Shown piece by piece: positions 5,423-30,478 of a DNA stretch of 64,000 nucleotides. Each line of letters opens with the position of its first letter. Within the stretch, counting starts at the first letter, position 1. The translations under genes and the position numbers were made by a program. The notes beneath the pieces were generated by a model. The model had not been told where the DNA came from. It ran no database searches and was given only the letters and a program-made list of their open reading frames with translations. Where the stretch lies: assembly GCA_011947345.1 (NCBI GenBank), contig JAAVTG010000075.1:558001-622000 (forward strand), read 5' to 3'. The stretch comes from Phytophthora quininea. Its lineage: Eukaryota; Oomycota; Peronosporomycetes; Peronosporales; Peronosporaceae.

Positions 5423-8400
5423 TCAAAAGATGCTAGCACTACTACCTTCCTTCTTTCGCGAGAGGCCCGTCAGAAAGCCATTGCGCCGCTTAATTGGAGG
5501 CTCCAAAGCCGCCGCCACCAGGGTGTACAGCGTCAACACTTCGCCGGGCAGAACGTCCACCGTGTTCTTGCCGCCGAGGTTGACGGTGCGACCACCCTGA
5601 CGTTTGAGCAGGTTGATGCCACGCGCACCGGGCTCCCCACCTTCCAGGCCATAGGGCTGGAAGGCACGACGTTCGGACAGAATGCTAACCGTCATGCCCT
5701 GCAGGAATTCAATCTGACGCACAACGCCGTCGCCGCCGCGGTATTGACCAGCACCTCCAGACCCTCCGCGAAGGTGGAAGGCGCGTAGCAACACAGGGAA
5801 GCGCTTTTCCAGGATTTCTGGGTCCGTGATGCGCGTGTTGGTCATGTGCGTGTGAATACCGCTACGGCCATTCCACGATGGGCCCGCACCAGCACCGCCA
5901 GCGATGGTCTCATAGTACCCACCAAGCGTGGCACTGCCAAAGGTAAGGTTGTTCATGCAACCCTGGGAAGCCGCACAAGCACCAAAGGCCTTGAGAATTA
6001 CATCGGTAATGCGTTGACTCGTGAGCACATTGCCACCGACAACGGCAGCGTTTGCACTGGGGTTCAAGATGCTGCCCTCGCTGGGAAAGCGCACTTCGAT
6101 AGGCGTCAGGCAGCCTTGGTTTAAAGGCAGATCCTCGCCAGGCAGTAGGCAGCGCAAGCAGTAGATGATCGCCGAGTACGTCACAGCAGGAGGCGTGTTG
6201 ACATTGCCAAAGACTTCAGGCCCAGTGCCAGCGAAGTCAAACACTGCAGAGTTCGATCGACGGTCGATCGAAATGCGCAGCGCAATTTTGGTGCCGTCGT
6301 CCATGAAGTCTTCCGCATACACGACACCAACTTCAGGTAGCTGCTTCTGAAGCGAGAACTCGTGCAGCATGTTACGCACAGCGATCTCAGCAGCTTGCTG
6401 GATGTAGTTCATGTAGGCAGTGACAACAGGCAAAGAGTACTCGGCGCACAGCTCGTGCATCAGTACCACACCACGACGATTAGCTGCCACCTGGGCACGC
6501 AGGTCGGACAGGTTGTCGCGCAAGTTGCGCGTTCCAATGCATGGTCTGCCCATGTCGTCCACGCGGTCTTTCTGAAGGAGGATGTCAGTGATCTCCTTCT
6601 CGCGGAACTCACCGACCTTGCTGTCGACCAATTTGAAGGCTACAATTGCGGCGCCTTCCTCAGACAGAGTTTTTGATAGAGGCGGCATTGACCCAGGCGA
6701 GATGCCGCCGATATCTGCGTGGTGGCCACGACTAGCAACAAAGAACTCGATTTTGCCGCTAGTCTGGTCAAAGACGGGCGTGATAACTGTGATGTCTGGG
6801 AGGTGCGAGCCACCTGCTAGTTGGGGATGGTTCGACACCAACACGTCTCCGTCGTGGAGATCATCGCCCCAGTGCTTGAGTTGGGCCCGCACAGCTTGCT
6901 GCATGGCTCCAAGATGAACTGGAAGGTGCGGAGCATTCGCGACAAGACCGCCGTCCGGTCCGAACAAAGCGCACGAAAAGTCGAGTCTCTCCTTGATATT
7001 CACCGACACGGAAGTACGCGCCAACGTACGGCCCATTTGCTCGGCGATACCCATAAAGCGATGGGAGAACACTGATAGTTGGATCGGGTCTAGCGGAACG
7101 TCTTCCGAGCGAGTAATTGCTGGCTCTTTATCGGGTTGTCGGGAGGATCCTGCACCAAATACCAAGAAGAGATCGCCACTAGGCATGACCTGCACTTGCC
7201 ACTCCGGCTCCACGACGACCGTCGCTGTGCCTTGCATAATAATCGCTGGACCTTGATATTTGGCACCACGCTTCTCCATCAGCTCCTCGTGAAGATACAC
7301 TGGGATTTCCTTCCACTTCCTCTCCTGTTCAAAGTAAAACTGGGTCATTGAGTGCGGTGCGCACGGGTCCACAATGTCAGTTGAAGTGCTTGCTGCCTTC
7401 AAGGCAGGATCTTTCAAATCTGGGGACACGGTAGCACGAACTCGGACGTCATCGATGAGGATCGACCGGTTCTGCAGTACGAAACCAAACTCGCGCTGAT
7501 ACTTCTCTACGAAGTTGGACTCGAAGTCAAACGCGGCCAGGGCACCCGCGCTAGTCGTAGGTGCTTCACCCTTAGCACCCACAGGACCGCGCGTCATAAC
7601 AGCGTTGTCAGTCCCCTCATAGCGCATGTTGAGGAAGTATTGCACTTGCACGTCCTCGTGCTGGAACCCGTCAGCAACCAGTTCGTCAATAACTTCTTGT
7701 GCGATCTTGGTTAGGCTGCTGACCAATGCCGGCTTACTGGAAGCGCTGTATTCTGCCGATGAAGGCAGTTGCTTATCCACGACACTATCCGCTACGCTCA
7801 AGCCATAGGCTGAGAGAATACCGCTGTAACGGTGGATGTATACGTTTCCCATGCCCAACGCCTTGGCGATGGAGCATGCGTGTTGTGGCCCTGCCCCTCC
7901 GAAGCAAGCCAGAATATGTGTGCTGATATCGTATCCCTTCATCTGCGTCAGGTTACGAATCGGACGGCACATTGCCTCATTAGCAACTCGCAGGAAACCC
8001 GAGGCCACTTCTTCCATCGTGTACTTGGCGCCATTCGCACCAGCGGAGGTGTTGATCTCTTTCGTAAGCGCTTCGAAAGCCTTACGAGACCCATCAACAT
8101 CCAGAGGCTCGTCCTCATTGGGGCCAAAGATCTTGGGGAAGAAATCGGGAAGAATACGCCCAGTCACGAGGTTGGCGTCGGTCACACTCAAGTGTCCATT
8201 CTTGCGGTAGCACACGGGTCCTGGGTGCGCGCGTACAGACTCTGGGCCAACGAGGAAGAGGCCGTTCTTGTAAAAGAGGCGCGAACCACCTCCCGCAGCG
8301 ACAGTTTGGATATCCAACTGCGGTGCACGTACCGTCACGTTGGCCGTCACGCTCTCGAGCACGTGCTCAAACTTGCCATCAAATCGAGACACATCCGTGG

Positions 8401-21322: not shown

Positions 21323-21330
21323 ACGGCATT
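21323..21330. repeat. Left 8-bp target-site duplication (ACGGCATT) of the hAT element
   Basis: ACGGCATT immediately precedes the left terminal repeat and recurs exactly at 28925-28932, immediately after the right terminal repeat. An 8-bp duplication is the hallmark of hAT insertion. Confidence 0.93.
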
Positions 21331-21343
21331 TAGAGTTGGGTAA
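21331..21343 (+). repeat. Left terminal inverted repeat of the hAT element
   Basis: TAGAGTTGGGTAA, perfectly complementary to 28912-28924. Confidence 0.9.
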
Positions 21344-21349
21344 TCGACC

Positions 21350-21463
21350 AGATCGGATTGATCGATCTGTACCTTCTGACCGATTCGATTGGTCCATACC
21401 GATTATCGATTTTTATCGATTGAATCCGATCGGATCCGATTCGATCGGATCGACTCGATATAA
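21350..21463. repeat. Left subterminal GATCGGAT/GATCCGAT motif cluster
   Basis: AT-rich stretch packed with short palindromic variants of GATCGGATC and CCGATTCGATT in both orientations. Clustered short motifs inside the terminal repeats are the usual transposase-binding arrangement of hAT elements. A matching cluster lies at the right end. Confidence 0.7.
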
Positions 21464-21826
21464 AAAATCTAACTGATCCTGCAGAAACAGATCCAGTGTT
21501 GCATTTGAATACGAAGGATAACAGGTGTGAACTACAACGACAGCGAGTTCATCCTTCTATTTCTAATATAATTTTAAACGAGCTTCCGCATTCAAAACAA
21601 AAGGTTCTAGTCATCTGACTCGGACCTTCGACAAAGTTTCTGCCCACTGGGCAGGCAGTGTCGATGGACCCGGCAGCAAGCGTCGCTCGAGTGAGAGGGA
21701 GGGGAGGCACTTCAGGTGGCCCGAACGCGGGTGATGTGGAGTCTGGTGTGACGCTAGCGTCGCGCGGGCACGTCTGCTGCGGATGCGAATTAGCCTGGTG
21801 CGTCGGTCAACGGCGCGTCTGGCAGT

Positions 21827-24153
21827 GTGACGATGGGAAGCGGTGGCTCTGCAAGCAGCACGTCTGGGTCCGTGGCTGTGGTCGGCGGCTCCAGCGCTGC
21901 AGACAGCGGCGGCTCTGTGTCGGTGCATGGTGGCCACAGTGGCGGTGATTCTGTGGGCGGCTCTGTGACGTTGCAGAGTGGCTCGAGTGCCGCAGACGCT
22001 GCCAGTGGTTTTATCGATATTGGGAGCGGGGCTGCGGCAAGGTCAGGCGCTAGTGGCAACATCAGTGTTTGCAAGGGCAGCGCGGTGTACGGCGCGTCAG
22101 GGACACTGTCGGTGGTGTCTGGGGACAGCTCCAGCGCTTCAAGCGGCGACATACTCGTCGCGAGCGGTCTTTCGACATCGTGCATCCGCGGCGGCTCAAC
22201 CGGCCGCGCGAATGCACGCGGAGGCTTCATGTCATCCGGCCCGGATGGCGTGGTGAGCCTGGTGAGTGGTGTTCGTCGCAGTGCTGGCGGCGGGGTAGTG
22301 GACATAGCTGCCGGTGGCAGCACTAGAGAGTGTGGGTGGCGGCAACGGAACGTGCGCGGCGGGCCTTTGAGTGGATCCTCGGGCGAAGCTGGCGGCGTCT
22401 CTCTGTCTGGCGGCGTGGGTTCGTCTGGCCCGACCATCGGGGAGGTGTTTCTCTCGACGGCGGCATGAGTGGCGCTGGTGTGGGCGGCCGTGTGGCTATC
22501 TCTTCTAGCGCCGGTTTGCTCGGAAGTGGTTCCGTGCGTGTTGCGACCGGTGTGAGTTTGACGGGGGATAGTCCGAGCGGCGCCGTGTCGGTCAGTAGCG
22601 GTGAGTCCGCGGACGCGGCTTCGGGCGACGTGAGTGTGTCGTCGGGGCCTTCTTCGTCGAGCTTCAGTGGAAATGTGTCTGTGGCGTCTGGCTCTGCAGG
22701 CGGAACGGCCGGCAACGTGTCGGTGTCGGGAGGCTCTAGCAGCTCGTCGACGGGAGGTGTCGTGTCCGTGGTGAGCGGCGGCGTCTCGAGCGGCGGCGTC
22801 TCGAGCGGCGCTGTGTCTGTTGGTAGCGCTGCATCGAGTGGCGCGTCGGTTTCTGGCGCGGTGTCGTTGGTGTCTGGGGAAACTGTGGCTGGCGCGTCCG
22901 GCGCTGTGAGTGTGGCGAGCGGGTCTAGCGCCAGCTCGAACGGCGGCGCGCTGGATGTGGTCGGCGGGTCTAGTGGTGGTGCTGGGGATGGAGGCACCAT
23001 CACAGTGGCCGGTGGCAACACGTTGACGGGAGATGCCGGCTCCGTTAAGGTGAGCGGCGGATTATCTTAGTCAAGCGGCTTGGGAGGCTCGGTCAGTGTG
23101 TCTGGCGGGTCGTCGACGGACGGCTCCGGAGGTGACGTGACAATCGCTAGTGGTGCTTCCGGGAGTGGTGTTGCCGGAAGCAGTGTGGCCGTCCGTAGCG
23201 GCTCCGGCGGTGGCCTGCGCATCATCCAAGGCGACAGCGTCGCGGTTGGCAGCGATGTGGAGCTGCGCGGCGGCGCTGTGAGGAGCTCGTCTCCTGCACA
23301 GAAAGTGAAGATCGTGGGGTCTCCGAACGCGCTAGGCGACGGAGGCGATGTGTCGGTTGAGGCCGGGTCGTCTGATGCGAGTGCCGGTGGGTCTGTGTCT
23401 GTGACCAGCGGCGTCGGCGCCTCGACTAGTGGCAACGTGATCGTGTCGACCGGCGTGGTGTCGGGTGGATCGAGTGGCGATGTCGCTGTGAGCACGAGTG
23501 CTAGTAGTGTCTCGAGTGGGTCTGTCGGAATCGCGAGCGGGTCCGGCGAGACTCGTGCTGGGTCCATCGACGTATCCAGGGGTTCGTCTGGAAGCGGAGA
23601 AGGCTCTGGCATTTCTGTGGTTGGCGGCGCGTCCAACGCGTCGACCGGTGGCAATGTGACGATCGTCAGCGGCGAGGGCGTATCGACCGAGAGCGGCACG
23701 GTGGTAGTGCGTTCTCACGCCGGCACAGGCAGCGCCGTCAGTGGGTCCGTGTCGCTGTCGAGCGGTCCGACGGATGACGGTTCGTCTGGCTTGGTCTCGA
23801 TCACGTCTGGCTCATCGATGAGAGGACCCAGTGGACCGTTGCGCGTCGGCGGTGGCGACGCTGGCGACTCTGGCGGGTCTGTGAGCGTGTCTGGAGGCAG
23901 CAGCTCCGGCGCGTCTGGGTCCGGCGGTGTGACCGGTTTGAGTGGAGGTGCTAGTGCAACGGGCGGCACCGTGACGGTGGCTGCTGGTTTGAGCTCGGCT
24001 GGCGACTGGGCTTCGCTATCTCTGACGAGTGGAGAAGGGTCCGCCGGCAGGACTGGACCCGTGGCTGCAGACAGCGGTGGCTCTGTGTCGGTGCACACGC
24101 GACTGCACGCGGAGGCTCCGTGTCTGTGTCATCCGGCCCGGATGGCGTGGTGA
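21827..24153 (+). CDS. Ser/Gly-rich beta-repeat protein carried inside the hAT element
   Basis: Tandem imperfect repeats of about 14-20 residues with consensus near SGxVSVxSGxSSxGx (for example GDVSVSSGPSSSSFSGNVSV), encoded by three overlapping plus-strand frames: 21827-22468, 22330-23070 and 23080-24153. Alternating Val/Ile strands and Ser/Gly turns suggest a beta-roll or beta-solenoid surface protein. A non-repeat insert (LRIIQGDSVAVGSDVELRGG) near 23215 breaks the array. No start with a signal peptide is visible, and the segment ends without a domain of its own, so it looks like an internal piece of a larger host gene. The antisense Pro/Thr-rich frames are shadows. A segment at 22205-22375 recurs near 24105-24275. 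Confidence 0.55.
22205..22375 (+). repeat. Direct repeat copy 1 within the cargo gene (partner near 24105-24275)
   Basis: About 170 bp nearly matching the segment near 24105-24275; both contain CATCCGGCCCGGATGGCGTG and GCGGCGGGGTAGTGGACATA. The copies differ by point changes and small indels. They bracket almost the whole repeat-protein segment. Confidence 0.75.
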
Positions 24154-24275
24154 GCCTGGTGAGTGGTGTCCGTCGAAGTGCCGGCGGCGGGGTAGTGGAC
24201 ATAGGCCGGTGGCAGCACTAGAGAGTGTGGGTGCGGCAACGTGAACGTGCGCGGCGTCTGGAAAGGTGACCGGCA
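24105..24275 (+). repeat. Direct repeat copy 2 within the cargo gene
   Basis: Partner of the copy at 22205-22375. Here the reading frame is lost just before the repeat, so this copy is probably non-coding. Confidence 0.7.
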
Positions 24276-24483
24276 GCGCTGGTGGTACGGCTTGTGCAGT
24301 CGTAAGGTGGTTTGAGAGATGGAATCGTAACATTCGTGGTGCGGTGACGTCTACTGGCCGCTGATACGACGTTATTGGTGGTGAAAGGAGGAAGCAGAGC
24401 ACACTTTTGATCGGCGTCAGCGAGTTGTCTGTCGTTTGGCCTTTCATACGTTTAACGGAGCCCAGCGACGAGATGAAATACGG

Positions 24484-24521
24484 CGCATCCAATCGGATCC
24501 GATCCGATCCGATCCGATCAG
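24484..24521. repeat. Internal cluster of the hAT subterminal motif
   Basis: Tandem GGATCC/GATCCGATCC motifs (AATCGGATCCGATCCGATCC and onward), the same family as at both ends of the element, placed just upstream of the transposase gene. It may mark the old left subterminal region of a shorter ancestral element. I searched the flanks for a second TAGAGTTGGG terminus and saw none. Confidence 0.65.
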
Positions 24522-24635
24522 ACTCGGGCTTCATATTCCCGCTGGCGGCGATCAAAATCATTTTCGCATTTGCGAGCTAGTGCGAAGCCGTTCACCCCCC
24601 TCTCTCTACCTCTCCTGGAGCTATCACTTCACAAC

Positions 24636-26681
24636 ATGGAGGAGCAAGAGAACTCAAGCACAAACATGTCTTCTAGCACCTCGCAGGGATCGCAAACACA
24701 AAAAGATCTGACGTCTGGACATATATCCACGAAAACAACAAGGGATCATATGCCTGTCTACTCTGTTCTGCTGACTCAGGGCCTCACTGGAGTACTTGCG
24801 CGCACTCTACATTTCGTCGCCATCTCAGACAGAAGCACCCAGAAGTTTATGGCGGCGTCAATAAGAAATCCCGACAGCCTGACTTACTGGACTTTGGCTT
24901 CGAGCGCTTCGTGAAGCAGCGAACTTTGGACAAGGATGCTGTCGATGCTGAGTTGGTAGCTTTAATCGTGAAATCTTCACTCCCACTAAACTTGGTTGAG
25001 AAGGATGAGTTTCGCTCCTTCTGCGAGTCACTCAATCCGGACTACACGCCACCGACGCGCAAGACTGTGCGTAAAAAGATTATGGAGCGTTGGGCGTGTG
25101 AGAAGGCACTCGTGAGACGTGAATTACTGCAAGGAGTTGCAAACTGCCGTGCTGCACTTACCACCGATATGTGGACTTCGGCGGCTAACAAAGGGTACAT
25201 GGTTATCACCATGCATTTTATTGACGACGACTGGAATATCCGATCTGTTATGGTCGGCTTTACGAGAGTGGAATACCCTCACTCCGGCAATAGGCTCGCG
25301 CAGCACCTGCTCGACACCGTCCGTGCGATGGATCAGTCCCTCGTTACAAAATTGTGGACAATCACAACGGACAACGCTAGCAACAATGGCACAATGGTTA
25401 CCGCAATTAACAAGGAACTGGAAGGCGAAGTTGCTAGCAATGAAGGTTTGAGGATTTCTGATCCGCCATCAGGGCCTGGACAGACCCCTACGCATCCTTT
25501 AAAGGTCGTTCAAGTGCGCTGCCTGGCTCATGTGTTTCAACTGGCAGTCAAAGAAGGTCTCAAACAATGTCCAATAATGGACGACGGCGTGGGTATAATC
25601 CGTGACATCCTGAAGAAGATATCGGACTCGCCGTCACTTCTAGAGGCGCTACAAAAGTGTGCACATCTATAGATGTAGCGTTTGTAGCACCAGCACTAGA
25701 CTGTGTGACGCGATGGAACAGCACGCTAACGATGCTAGCTTCAGCACGCTCTTTAAAGGAGGCAATTCAAGAGCTTCAACGCAGAATTCGGGGAAACACG
25801 AAGGCTACAAAGAATTCATCATTGGGCCAAGCGATCGGCTCGCTGAGTCGATACCAGAGGCAACATGGGGGTACTTGGCGGAGCTCGCAAGGTTCCTCAG
25901 ACCAATTAAGGCTGCAACTACAATGATGTCTGGCAAAAACTACCCCACCTTTGGCGTCGCGTTATTGGTTTTTGACCTCGTCTCGAAACACGCGGCCAAG
26001 ACGAAAGATACTGCTGCCTCTTGGTATACGAAAGACTTTGCGCGCGCCTTCAAACAGAAGCTTGACGAGTACATACCGCACGTCAAGACTAGAGAGGCAC
26101 AGATTGCTGCCGTCCTTGATCCACGGGTTAAGTCCCACCTAGTCAAGATTGGCATTGAAATCGCCGACGCGAAACGTATCGTCGAAGCAGAGTTCGAATC
26201 CCAGTATCGGTATGAGCACGAGAGAAGAGAAGCAAGCGCTAGAGCGATGATGCAAACGCAAGAACAAGAAGAAGAAGTCGAAGACGAGGAAGCTTTGGGC
26301 TCACTTATGGATGAACACCTCGGCTTGGTTACGCCTGAACGCGATATTGGTGAATCTTTCGCAAGTGAGTTAAGTAGGTGGCTTGACCATAAAGACACGA
26401 CTATGGCCATGAAAACACCAAGCAGAAACGTATGCCGATGGATGAGAGATGAAGCGTCGTCGTTCCCGCGTGTACAGATGATGGCACGAGATTATCTTGC
26501 TGTAATGGCAACCTCAGTGCCTAGCGAACAAGCATTTTCTGCATCAGGAACTACAATCACCAAACGACGCGCTCGACTTAAGGACGATGCCATCTCAGCC
26601 ATGTTGGAGTTGCAAGCATTTCTTGGATTCAATGCAACCTCCGGTGATGTCCATGCTGATCCTGTCGACCTTCGCTGGTAA
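24636..26681 (+). CDS. hAT transposase with BED zinc finger
   Basis: Cut-and-paste transposase acting on the surrounding terminal repeats. An N-terminal BED finger (SYACLLCSADSGPHW, then HLRQKHPE) is followed by the RNase H-like core with LTTDMWTS and TITTDNASNNG (acidic residues), the CLAHVFQLAVKEGL motif, the TRWNSTL tryptophan, and the C-terminal dimerisation region SVPSEQAFSASGTTITKRR. Three single-base breaks, at 24700-24704 (A-run), 25657 (G) and 25790-25793 (G-run), are each repaired by one added base and leave no internal stop. The corrected protein is about 680 residues and looks complete, so the element may encode a working enzyme. Start chosen at ATG 24636. Confidence 0.88.
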
Positions 26682-26759
26682 TACAGAAGCAGAAGCTCCT
26701 TCCATCATTCATTTTTTCAATTACTAGCAGCGGTTCACTTCATTATGATGCTGTTTAGC

Positions 26760-28690
26760 TAGTCATTGGTCCAGTAGCAGATGTGCCGTTTTCGCGGCCG
26801 TCGGCGATCTTCGCCCGTCAGCATCTTGATCATCGTAGACTTACTGGCACCGTTCGGGCCGAGCACGGCGATACGGCTCGTCATAGCGCACGTCACAGAG
26901 ATGTTGCTGATCGACGGCTTGTCCGTGCTAGGGTACTTGTACAAGCAGTTCGTCAGACGAACGATGGGCGTACCCTCGTTCTTGATGTCGGCAAGGAAAC
27001 TCGGCTCTGGGAACGTGAACTTGAACGTCGCAGCGTCCAGCTCGTAGTACGCCTTGGCCTCCGGCTTCACCTCCACGAACTTCGACAGGTTGCCCTTGTA
27101 GATCTTCAGCTTGCGCGTCTCGTAGTGAATGATGTTCGTGCACACCGTGTCCAGGAAACCAGAGTCGTGCGACACCATGATGCTCGTCACGTTCGGCAGT
27201 TCAACAGGTAGTTCTCCAGCCACGCAACGTTTTTCACGTCCAAGTGGTTCGTCGGCTCATCAAGCAGCAGGATGTCGGCCTTCTGTAGCATAGTGAAGGT
27301 AGCTCCAGTTTCATCTTGCAACCACCCGACAGCGTGGCCACGGCCTGGGCCTGCATCTCCGGCGTGAAGCCGACGCTCGACAGCGAGTTCATGACCTCCT
27401 GGCGCGGGGTCACCTTCAGGTCCTCATCCGCAAGGATGAAGTCCACTACCGACAGCTCGACCTCCGACTCCTGCACGTTGTGCTCCACGAACACTGCCTT
27501 CAGCTCGTCCTTCGCAGGGAAGCCGTCAAGCTGGCCGTTCGCGATGGCGCGCATTAGCGTAGACTTACCGCAACCGTTAGGGCCGCACAAACCGTAGCGG
27601 TGGCCGCGCTTCAGGCGGAGACGGGCGTTGTTGAGCAGGTCATACCACCGTAGGCGAGCAAGAACTCGCAGATGCACAGGCACGGGATGCCCTCGTCGCA
27701 GTCCACGTCCTCGATGAAGATGCTCTTGTTCTCCTTGAAGCACCGGTCGCGGATCTCGTTGACCAGCGGCTTGATGTCGTCCGCCTTCATGACCGCCTTG
27801 AAGTAGCCGTCATCTGCTTCTCGAAGATCGTCTTGTTAAAGTTGCGAGCAGCCACCAGGAAGAAGCAGACGCGGGTCACGAAGTCCACCGCGAACGAGTC
27901 GATGCCAGCCCTCACGGCGGCGGGGGCGGCCGCGATCGACTCCACCACCACCTTGTGGACGTTGGCGTAGTCCACCTTCAGCTCGTCCTCCGACACCTCC
28001 ATGGAACCACCAGTCACGAACAGCGTCTCGTGGGCGCGAGTGGCGATCTCACAGCACTCCAGGTCGGCCTGGGTCTCGATCACCTTCTTCAGGCCCGGCA
28101 GCAGCTTCGGGATGAACAGCTGCGCCTCGGCCGGGTCGTCCATCAGCTTGCACATGTTGTCGATGATGACGGCGGCCTGGCGCTTCACGGCCGTCTTGCC
28201 CTCCTTCAGCGCGCGCTGCAGCAGCGGCTCCATGATGGCAAGGGCGGGCGCTTCCACCGTCTTGACGAACGTCGTCGACGCCAGCTTGTGCGTGCACTCG
28301 GGCACCTCCGTCGGGTTCGCCAGGCAGCTCACCAGCGCCGGGATGCAGGACTCAATGTCCTGGTTGCCCACCACGTTGCAAACCTTGGTCATCGTCTCCT
28401 TGGCGGCCTCCTTGATCTCCTTGCAGGTGTCCCACATGCAGTCCGTTACCTGAGGGACGATGTCCGGCAGGCATGGTTCGGGCACTCGACGATCAGGTCC
28501 AGCGCACCCTTCTTCATCTGCCACTTCTTGGAGCGGTCCAGGCCGTCGAACAGGATCGGCAGCACGTGGGTCGTGTAGTTCTTGTGGGCGGCGTGCACAG
28601 CCGTCGGCACCACGGGGCTCACCGTCGTCTTCTAGTCGGCCAACAGGTAGCAGCAGATGCTCCCCGCGTTGTACGATAGGGGTATCGCTC
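26760..28690 (-). pseudogene. Truncated eEF3 (translation elongation factor 3, ABC-F) copy inside the hAT element
   Basis: eEF3 is a ribosome-bound ABC ATPase of fungi and some other eukaryotes. Reading minus strand: HEAT-repeat region (HVLPILFDGLDRSKKWQMKK, DIVPQVTDCMWDTCKE, ALVSCLANPTEVPECTHKL, AVIIDNMCKLMDDP), then ABC1 with Walker A GPNGCGKST, signature [11 protein letters not shown] and Walker [16 protein letters not shown], then the start of ABC2 with GPNGASKST. The second Walker A has Ser in place of the invariant Gly before Lys. The copy ends about 10 residues later in unrelated sequence (ICYWTND). The N-terminal HEAT start, ABC2 signature/Walker B and chromodomain are missing. Several single-base shifts also occur. 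It cannot make a functional factor as it stands, though HEAT or ABC1 peptides could be expressed. Confidence 0.85.
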
Positions 28691-28794
28691 AAGACAGAAT
28701 ATCATCGAGATCGAGTCCTCTAGCGGCCCCGGAGACATTTTAACTGGTAGAAATTTTGCTATGTTTTACCCAATAGCTTTCTATCGCCCTCCAA

Positions 28795-28905
28795 TCCGAT
28801 CGGATCGGTTTGGATCGGATCGGATCGATTTTTGACCCGATTCAAACACAATCCGACTAGAAACGACTGTGATCGGATCAGATCCGATAGATAAATCGAT
28901 TGGAT
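28795..28905. repeat. Right subterminal GATCGGAT motif cluster of the hAT element
   Basis: Dense ATCCGATCGGATC-type motifs (for example GATCGGATCGGATCG near 28815), mirroring the left subterminal region. Confidence 0.7.
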
Positions 28906-28911
28906 TATTTG

Positions 28912-28924
28912 TTACCCAACTCTA
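28912..28924 (-). repeat. Right terminal inverted repeat of the hAT element
   Basis: TTACCCAACTCTA, the exact complement of the left terminus. Confidence 0.9.
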
Positions 28925-28932
28925 ACGGCATT
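28925..28932. repeat. Right 8-bp target-site duplication (ACGGCATT)
   Basis: Identical to 21323-21330. Confidence 0.93.
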
Positions 28933-29039: not shown

Positions 29040-30478
29040 ATGAGCGAGGAGATCGGCAAGAAGGCGGACGTGGGGCCCGAGTACCAGCGCGTGCTTCCGG
29101 AGGCGCAGGCGGTGGCAGCCAGCGGCGACGTGGAGCGCGCATGCGAGCTGCTGCTTGCGGTGGAGAAGCAGGCGCGACTGGCGAACGACGTGGCCACGCT
29201 CAAGGAGGCGGTAGGCGCCATCCTGACACTGTGCGCGAGCCACAAGCGCTGGGAGCTGCTGAAGGACCACGTGGCGCTGCTGGCCAAGCGTCGAGCCCAA
29301 AAGTCCGGCGCCATCACAGTAGTGGTGCAGAAATCCATGGAGTTCCTCGGGAGACACCGTCGGACGCCGTCAAGATGGAGCTGATCAATGCGCTGCGAAC
29401 TGTAGCCGAAGGAAAGATCTTCCTGGAGAAGGAGCGCGCTGCTCTGACCCAAATGCTGTCCAGGATGAAGGAGGCCAAGGGAGAGATCGACGAGGCCGCC
29501 ACCATCCTGCAGGAGGTTCACGTGGAAACCTACGGCGCCATGACCAAGCTCGAGAAGACCGAGTATATCTTGGAACAGGTACGACTCACGCTGGCCAAAA
29601 GGACTATGTGCGAGCCAATATCCTTGCCAAAAAGATCTTGAGACGCACGCTGGAGGAGAAGGACTTCCAGGAGTGCAAACTCAAGTTCTATCACTTGATG
29701 ATTGAGTACGATACCCACGAGAACAATACGCTGGAGCTGTGTCGCCACTGGATGGCTATCTTTAATACGGAGATGGTGAAAGAGAAGGAGGACATGTGGA
29801 AGAAGGCGCTGGAGCACGCCACTGTCTTTGTGGTGCTGTCCGCCTACTCGAACTTGCAGAACGACCTGCTGCACAAGCTGGCGGTCGAGAAACTCACCGA
29901 GAAAGTGCCCGATTTTGCGGCTGTGCTCAAAAAGTTCACGACCAAGGAGATCATCGCCTTCCCCATGGAACAGGACGCGGTGCTGAAGAAACACCCCATC
30001 TTCAACCACGTGGAGCGAGGCGCCGAGTGGTGGAAGACGCTGCACAACCGCGTCATTGAACACAACATCCGCATCGTGGCAGAGCACTACGACCGCATCC
30101 GCCTGCCGCATCTGGCCAACATGATCGGTCTTTCGGAAGATGTATGTTTTACTAGCTCTGTATTGGATGTGTGGAGTGGAAACTAACGGTTGGTATTTGC
30201 ATGACAGCTGACGGAAGGCAGTATCTCGACGCTCGTGAGCGACGGCTCCATTTTCGCAAAGATCGACCGCCCTGCCAAGCTTGTTTCGTTCCACAGACCG
30301 CTCTCACCAGAGGAACAGCTCTCCAACTGGTCGGGTACGTCCAGCATGAGCGTTCTCTTCGTCATCGATCATGTACTTATGGATATCTGTTTGTGCAGCG
30401 GACATCTCCGAGCTGCTTCGCCTGGTGGAGACCACGTGCCACTTAGTCAACAAGGAAAACATGATCCACAAGATCTAA
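29040..30478 (+). CDS. RPN5: 26S proteasome regulatory subunit RPN5 (PSMD12)
   Basis: Non-ATPase scaffold subunit of the proteasome lid. The ATG at 29040 gives MSEEIGKKADVGPEYQ. A helical solenoid (ACELLLAVEKQARLANDVA, KMELINALRTVAEGKIFLEK, ILAKKILRRTLEEKDFQ, CRHWMAIFNTEMVKEKE) leads to a C-terminal PCI domain (GLSEDLTEGSISTLVSDGSI, IFAKIDRPA) ending ENMIHKI. Introns: 30142-30207 and 30335-30398. Two frames are rejoined by adding G at 29349-29351 and A at 29597-29600. Corrected length is about 436 residues, normal for the family. Its start lies only 108 bp from the right end of the hAT insertion, so the transposon sits in or near its promoter. Confidence 0.9.

Follow-up and report, generated by a model that had tools for sequence, protein, structure and literature searches.

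Two fungal systems come closest to the element reported here. In Pseudocercospora fijiensis and its relatives, a complete hAT transposon carries histone H3 (PMC6710886). As far as the available text of that paper describes it, the resemblance is extensive: terminal inverted repeats (TIRs), 8-bp duplications, and a piece of a housekeeping gene that was captured and amplified while the parent gene was kept. That element, however, exists in hundreds of copies damaged by RIP, carries a single gene and has been proposed to have a transcript origin, whereas ours occupies about 19 sites, carries pieces of two genes, is free of substitutions in most of its young copies and shows parent-like tracts in its cargo. 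In Pyrenophora tritici-repentis, a hAT element of about 5.6 kb carrying histone H3L (PMC3538342) resembles ours in that it combines transposase with cargo ORFs, is present in 10 nearly identical copies and also occurs as a shorter recombinant variant; in the portion of that report available to us, full-length H3L variants are described and ESTs align to the element, whereas the cargo here is broken. The term gene conversion is absent from the main texts of both papers. In maize, filler DNA is described in Ds2 and Ds-l4 elements, in a study that calls gene capture rare among hAT elements (PMC3260210). According to the sections of that study at hand, elements of the Ac/Ds family occasionally contain gene fragments matching genes on other chromosomes, a point of resemblance to our element, but Ds elements are non-autonomous whereas the present element holds cargo together with a transposase gene. 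The Pack-TYPE elements of plants are likewise DNA transposons that capture coding DNA, and are described, in the parts consulted, as non-autonomous (PMC8903248); they are defined by having no transposase gene, whereas the present element carries one, working or not, and transposase sequence is found in 22 of 22 copies. The literature searched, largely at abstract level and with partial coverage, yielded no hAT gene capture in an oomycete and no parent-templated conversion of transposon cargo, and the review PMC13317346 does not mention "gene conversion", "hAT", "oomycete", "fungi" or "gap repair". As far as these sources go, hAT transduplication is known from fungi and maize, and what is unusual here is cargo that appears to have been re-copied from its parents.

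We analysed a 64,000-nucleotide stretch of the Phytophthora quininea genome (hereafter the window), which contains one such element (Table 1). We favour, with a probability of about 0.82, the reading that a recently active Ac-type hAT element copied in pieces of two host genes, was amplified, and had its passengers occasionally re-copied by ectopic gene conversion. The initial annotation had proposed that an oomycete hAT element had captured segments of two host genes; this proposal stands, with the amendment that the cargo consists of broken fragments. Transduplication of housekeeping genes by hAT elements is thereby extended from fungi and plants to an oomycete, in a case that offers two captured genes, both parents, a relic with one common capture junction, and an empty site. 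With parents and copies in one genome, one can ask directly whether exchange of sequence with the source genes continues after capture or whether the pieces simply decay.

Table 1. Features of the hAT element and its insertion site, in window coordinates.
Feature	Position	Strand	Evidence or remark
Left target duplication copy ACGGCATT	21323..21330		single copy at C824 empty site
Complete hAT element, 7,594 bp	21331..28924	+	at least 22 assembled genome copies
Left terminal inverted repeat TAGAGTTGGGTAA	21331..21343	+	exact match
Left subterminal cluster, GATCCGATC-type motifs	21352..21459		motif search
Old edge, Ser/Gly cargo	21641..21795	+	72% to parent array, 82% to C578 relic
Ser/Gly cargo	21796..24050	+	94% to C691 tandem array; parent identity jumps at 21796
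Second short Ser/Gly piece	24098..24256	+	direct repeat of ~22207-22361
Internal cluster, GATCCGATC-type motifs	24487..24519		upstream of transposase gene
hAT transposase gene	24636..26681	+	three frame breaks near homopolymer runs
eEF3 cargo, ~codons 100-730 of 1038	26811..28656	-	92% to intact C3 gene; frame-breaking indels
Right subterminal cluster, GATCCGATC-type motifs	28794..28888		motif search
Right terminal inverted repeat	28912..28924	-	exact match
Right target duplication copy ACGGCATT	28925..28932		sequence

The element has the 8-bp duplication, the short terminal inverted repeats and the dimerisation and RNase-H-like domains of a hAT transposon. Within the window, TAGAGTTGGGTAA is matched twice with up to two mismatches, against 0.53 matches expected, and 9 of 100 shuffles also gave two; taken by itself, this count is weak evidence for the ends. 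The case for the 13-bp inverted termini, which had been recognised from the sequence, is made instead by the genome-wide counts: of 44 exact copies of the 13-mer in the 87.2-Mb assembly, 23 are forward and 21 reverse, whereas the reversed control has 0 in each direction. The subterminal motif clusters described at the outset are also real. The element contains 10 of the 11 window occurrences of GATCCGATC; these lie close to its two ends and also form an internal cluster (24496-24511) that had gone unmentioned. The perfect 8-bp duplication is borne out by contig C824, where a lone ACGGCATT stands without an element in a region of 96.7% identity (753 bp); when the two window flanks are fused around a single target copy, the product aligns over its whole length to this contig at 97%. 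The window element is therefore one insertion, absent from the matching contig, and its two ends belong together rather than to different insertions. A PSMD12/CSN4-type gene apparently begins about 110 bp downstream of the insertion. The search for empty sites, proposed earlier as a check and carried out in this one assembly, succeeded for two of the three insertions tested, and gave none for the C781 insertion. That of the C435 insertion (97%) is on its own contig and in inverted orientation, and so may reflect duplication of the region or palindromic assembly instead of allelic variation; a further match of 79% is on C347.

Among the 19 elements with both ends exact, 12 have identical 8-bp flanks (including C825 and C826, which are the same site). 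In the other seven, five have flanks that match those of another copy, one has an added palindrome and one is unmatched. The target preference of Ac-type hAT elements is nTnnnnAn. The T and A of this motif are here the commonest bases at positions 2 and 7 of the duplication without being strict (14 of 32 readings, from 16 target sequences on both strands, four of them inferred from exchanged flanks).

Genome searches, whose counts are lower bounds, identified at least 22 assembled copies at about 19 sites, after merging of contigs with the same flanks (C825/C826/C780, C552b/C553). The comparison of copies with and without cargo, suggested by the initial annotation, gave a uniform answer: the transposase and both cargos are present in 22 of 22, with 99-100% identity for the transposase sequence, 96-100% for the eEF3 cargo, and the Ser/Gly cargo found in all. 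The sites divide into 13 young and 6 older ones. Over six segments compared (which omit 26691-26758), 11 of the 12 other young sites have no substitution relative to the window copy, and C435 has one. Short indels are more numerous, with 73 in 11 copies, 45 of them in runs of at least three (this count covers 11 of the 12 young sites and leaves out C552b). C553, C825 and C780, which lie at the sites of other young copies and were not counted as sites, have 5, 7 and 5 substitutions relative to the window copy in the segment count, and 0, 3 and 4 BLAST mismatches. In the older copies, divergence from the window copy amounts to about 1-4% for the cargo and 0.4-1% for the transposase gene. The copies without substitutions, together with the empty site, indicate very recent activity of the element. 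Seventeen of the 19 exact-ended elements measure 7,571-7,598 bp; the others are C558 (5,676 bp) and C610a (6,586 bp). Both have lost one and the same central stretch of the Ser/Gly cargo, which lies between direct repeats at element positions 877-1031 and 2768-2926, which correspond to ~22207-22361 and the 24098..24256 piece of the window, and C610a has an additional insert of about 0.9 kb within the transposase gene. A further copy, C199, is cut by the contig end and has the same left flank as C963.

The assignment of the minus-strand cargo to eEF3 was confirmed by a Pfam profile search (HEAT_EF3_GNC1, 2.5e-33, and ABC_tran). Its parent is an intact, intronless reading frame of 1038 codons on C3, the protein of which matches PDB elongation factor 3A (7b7d) over residues 34-1038 of 1038; the closest named relatives (Nothophytophthora sp., 91%, and a Peronospora-named cluster, 90%) are oomycete. 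Alignment of the cargo to its parents, which had also been suggested, gave 92% for eEF3 and 94% for the Ser/Gly segment. Both parents are found elsewhere without the element, and the same cargo is found at several sites, as in transduplication. On C3 (606959-616164) there are two eEF3 matches of equal score and opposite orientation, 5.4 kb apart, one of which served as the parent sequence. At 62 sites of the eEF3 core, the window copy and all six older copies differ from the parent, and the eEF3 cargo copies examined have indels in common (a 10-bp deletion and frame-breaking single-base ones). These common sites and indels argue for one eEF3 capture behind the compared copies and, as some of the indels break the frame, for a cargo that is, to judge from its sequence, a broken gene fragment and no working gene. 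An early alignment of the whole coding sequence gave 150 differences, 72 of them common to 16 copies, but these figures include forced end matches, and the counts for tracts given below are restricted to CDS 300-2190. The arrangement raises the question of what effect many mobile near-copies may have on a core translation gene.

The other cargo, taken in the initial annotation for a Ser/Gly repeat segment, has its counterpart in a tandem array of 903-codon units on C691. The two units read, on which the array comparison rests, are 2,709 bp each and 99.6% identical. C691 holds at least 15 matches to the Ser/Gly query, 11 of them over query positions 1-2251, and the tandem units extend over about 36 kb (206229-242564), possibly encoding one giant protein. 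Pfam searches gave no match for the cargo, nor for the piece of the C691 array that was tried; the best database relative of the array is an uncharacterised protein of Phytophthora ramorum (53% over 28% of the query).

A relic on C578 allows the history of this cargo to be followed further back. It has the same left terminal repeat, its left end is 81% identical to the window copy, and it has the same Ser/Gly junction with a common gap of about 70 bp; within the 9.2 kb read, neither an eEF3 match nor an exact copy of the right terminal repeat was found. At the old edge of the cargo, 19 sites join the window copy and the relic, 4 the window copy and the parent, and 16 the relic and the parent (window copy private). 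From 21796 to 23159 the corresponding numbers are 19, 250 and 28, and in the overwrite comparison the relic is 74-79% identical to the array and the window copy 94-96%. The capture of the Ser/Gly segment thus looks old, and much of its sequence looks to have been replaced later from the array, after the split from the C578 lineage. The replacement would have preceded the spread of the present copies, because the six older copies show the same drop in array divergence after 21796 where they have kept the segment. Both conversion and a second capture fit this older overwrite. Near the relic (7155-8234 of the sequence read) there is also a Tc1/mariner-like transposase frame (HTH_Tnp_Tc3_2, E 0.0005, below the curated cut-off).

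More recent replacements are apparent in three older copies. We used 100 diagnostic eEF3 sites, at which the parent is distinguished from four cargo copies (those of the window, C216, C206 and C639). In C636, 37 parent states follow in a row (CDS 935-1586), with 1 difference in 652 positions from the parent and 43 in 650 from the window copy. C558 has a run of 13 (CDS 1185-1419; 0/235 versus 14/233) and C610a a run of 6 (CDS 1470-1529; 0/60 versus 6/60). Each of these runs was reached in 0 of 20,000 shuffles. C610a has in addition a Ser/Gly tract (window 22006-22123) in which 12 consecutive sites, out of 28, have the parent state, a run reached in 1 of 20,000 shuffles; all the shuffle tests were done after the tracts had been seen. 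Outside the tracts the three copies resemble the others, except for lone, unexplained parent-like sites (C636 1971, C558 732, C610a Ser/Gly 22317). The transfer would run from parent to element, because each tract is identical or nearly identical to the parent while the other copies differ there as much as elsewhere. These tracts, like the rearrangements described below, come from one assembly with many small indels. They suggest that the cargo apparently still exchanges sequence with its source genes, which affects the dating of captures, as identity to the parent is then not a measure of age.

One may thus propose that pieces of two host genes were copied into a hAT element by transduplication, that the element was amplified with these pieces as passengers, and that ectopic gene conversion from the parent genes occasionally renews these passengers. 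On the best reading, capture and re-copying would both be outcomes of homology-directed repair templated by a host gene. The lesion repaired would plausibly be the double-strand break that excision leaves behind, and the switch of the repairing strand to the parent gene is suggested by the general behaviour of Ac/Ds-type elements. Any link of the conversion to transposition itself would be hypothetical. A bolder version, in which re-copying is part of the transposon life cycle, excision-break repair re-capturing eEF3 and Ser/Gly sequence time after time so that cargo and core host gene undergo concerted evolution where otherwise the cargo would merely decay, seems to us unlikely.

The data could also be read as ordinary transduplication only, that is, capture followed by neutral decay, the parent-like tracts being chimeras of assembly or consensus. 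The assembly is indeed imperfect, as small indels break frames even in the neighbouring PSMD12/CSN4-type gene, and 11 young copies are set apart from the window copy by the 73 short indels, but the errors seen are of this small kind, whereas the tracts are runs of parent-matching substitutions, occur in three copies with three different boundaries, and are accompanied by the low array divergence after 21796 common to the window copy and the six older ones where these keep the segment; we regard this reading as improbable. Still less probable is a cargo that is expressed and useful, as a chimeric protein or in antisense control of eEF3. The eEF3 piece does lie antisense, downstream of the transposase gene, and is similar to a host gene, but the copies have frame-breaking indels in common, including the 10-bp deletion, and frame changes are present in the Ser/Gly cargo (part of which may be assembly error). 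In a mutation-type-matched test, moreover, 51 of 82 changes in the eEF3 cargo were nonsynonymous against a null mean of 57.0 (P = 0.07), no significant departure from random. The internal motif cluster might recall a nested or composite insertion, made of two elements or of a host segment only resembling one; with 17 of 19 exact-ended elements of nearly the same length, and none of the element present at the empty site, we give this practically no credence.

A family that is no longer autonomous, its transposase dead and its elements mobilised in trans by a related hAT, is a more serious contender, although on the whole we doubt it. The initial annotation spoke of a near-intact transposase. 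The hAT identity stands, as the C-terminal piece matches Dimer_Tnp_hAT (PF05699, 4e-14) and hAT-like_RNase-H (PF14372, 5e-6; 27.2 bits, just above the cut-off of 27), its best relatives being an unnamed protein (68%) and a "putative AC transposase" of Phytophthora citrophthora (53%); the N-terminal piece matched no Pfam family. Near-intactness is unproven, since the frame of the window copy is broken at three places and every copy, as assembled, has at least one break. The 21 other copies are all free of indels relative to the window copy at the first break, as are C216, C636 and five young ones throughout the gene. Other hAT C-terminal pieces in the genome, with 53-61% protein identity, include five in stop-free open frames of 358-431 aa, which could supply the activity. 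A mutation-type-matched test gave no sign of selection either (30 of 47 changes nonsynonymous, null mean 32.3, P = 0.29), and purifying selection on the transposase was dropped as a candidate on this result; a first pN/pS of 0.27-0.59 in six copies was discounted, the first piece having been one base out of register and mutation type not controlled for. Against a dead transposase, the breaks are near homopolymer runs, some copies differ in length at the second and third, and the C578 relic is in a single frame across the first. The PSMD12/CSN4-type gene (window 29040-30186) is likewise spread over three frames, whose profile matches follow one another without a gap (2-73, 72-156, 155-217), which points to assembly indels as the probable cause. 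Because the assembly also breaks this ordinary gene, the transposase can be called neither near-intact nor dead on its evidence. Under the favoured reading of a recently active element with re-copied passengers, a working transposase, its own or that of a relative, would have acted recently, because substitution-free copies occupy many sites. Between C636 and the window copy there are 9 differences in 2054 positions of the transposase and 70 in 1935 of the cargo; the higher divergence of the cargo between subfamilies may stem from the conversion tracts.

Several copies have unusual flanks. Those at C23:274994-282589 and C461:6370-13956 have exchanged target copies (GTCACTAG..GATGTATG versus GATGTATG..GTCACTAG, in element orientation), as expected either if the two insertions had exchanged sequence with each other or if the assembly was misjoined within the repeat. 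At C552:232396-252179 there are two inverted copies with 4.6 kb between them and flanks ACTGCTGC..GGTCTGGT and GCAGCAGT..ACCAGACC, a pattern that fits an inversion of the stretch between the two copies; the second of these is repeated on C553. At C27:57598-65188 the left target copy is ATGAGGCT, and the right flank opens with its reverse complement, AGCCTCAT, and continues with TGAGGCT; we take this palindromic addition to be like the hairpin footprints of hAT cleavage. Finally, at C206:348188-348265, 68 bp of the right end stand inverted ahead of a full left end; the flanking 8 bases are those beside the C639 end (contig orientation), which suggests that the two are a broken or rearranged pair.
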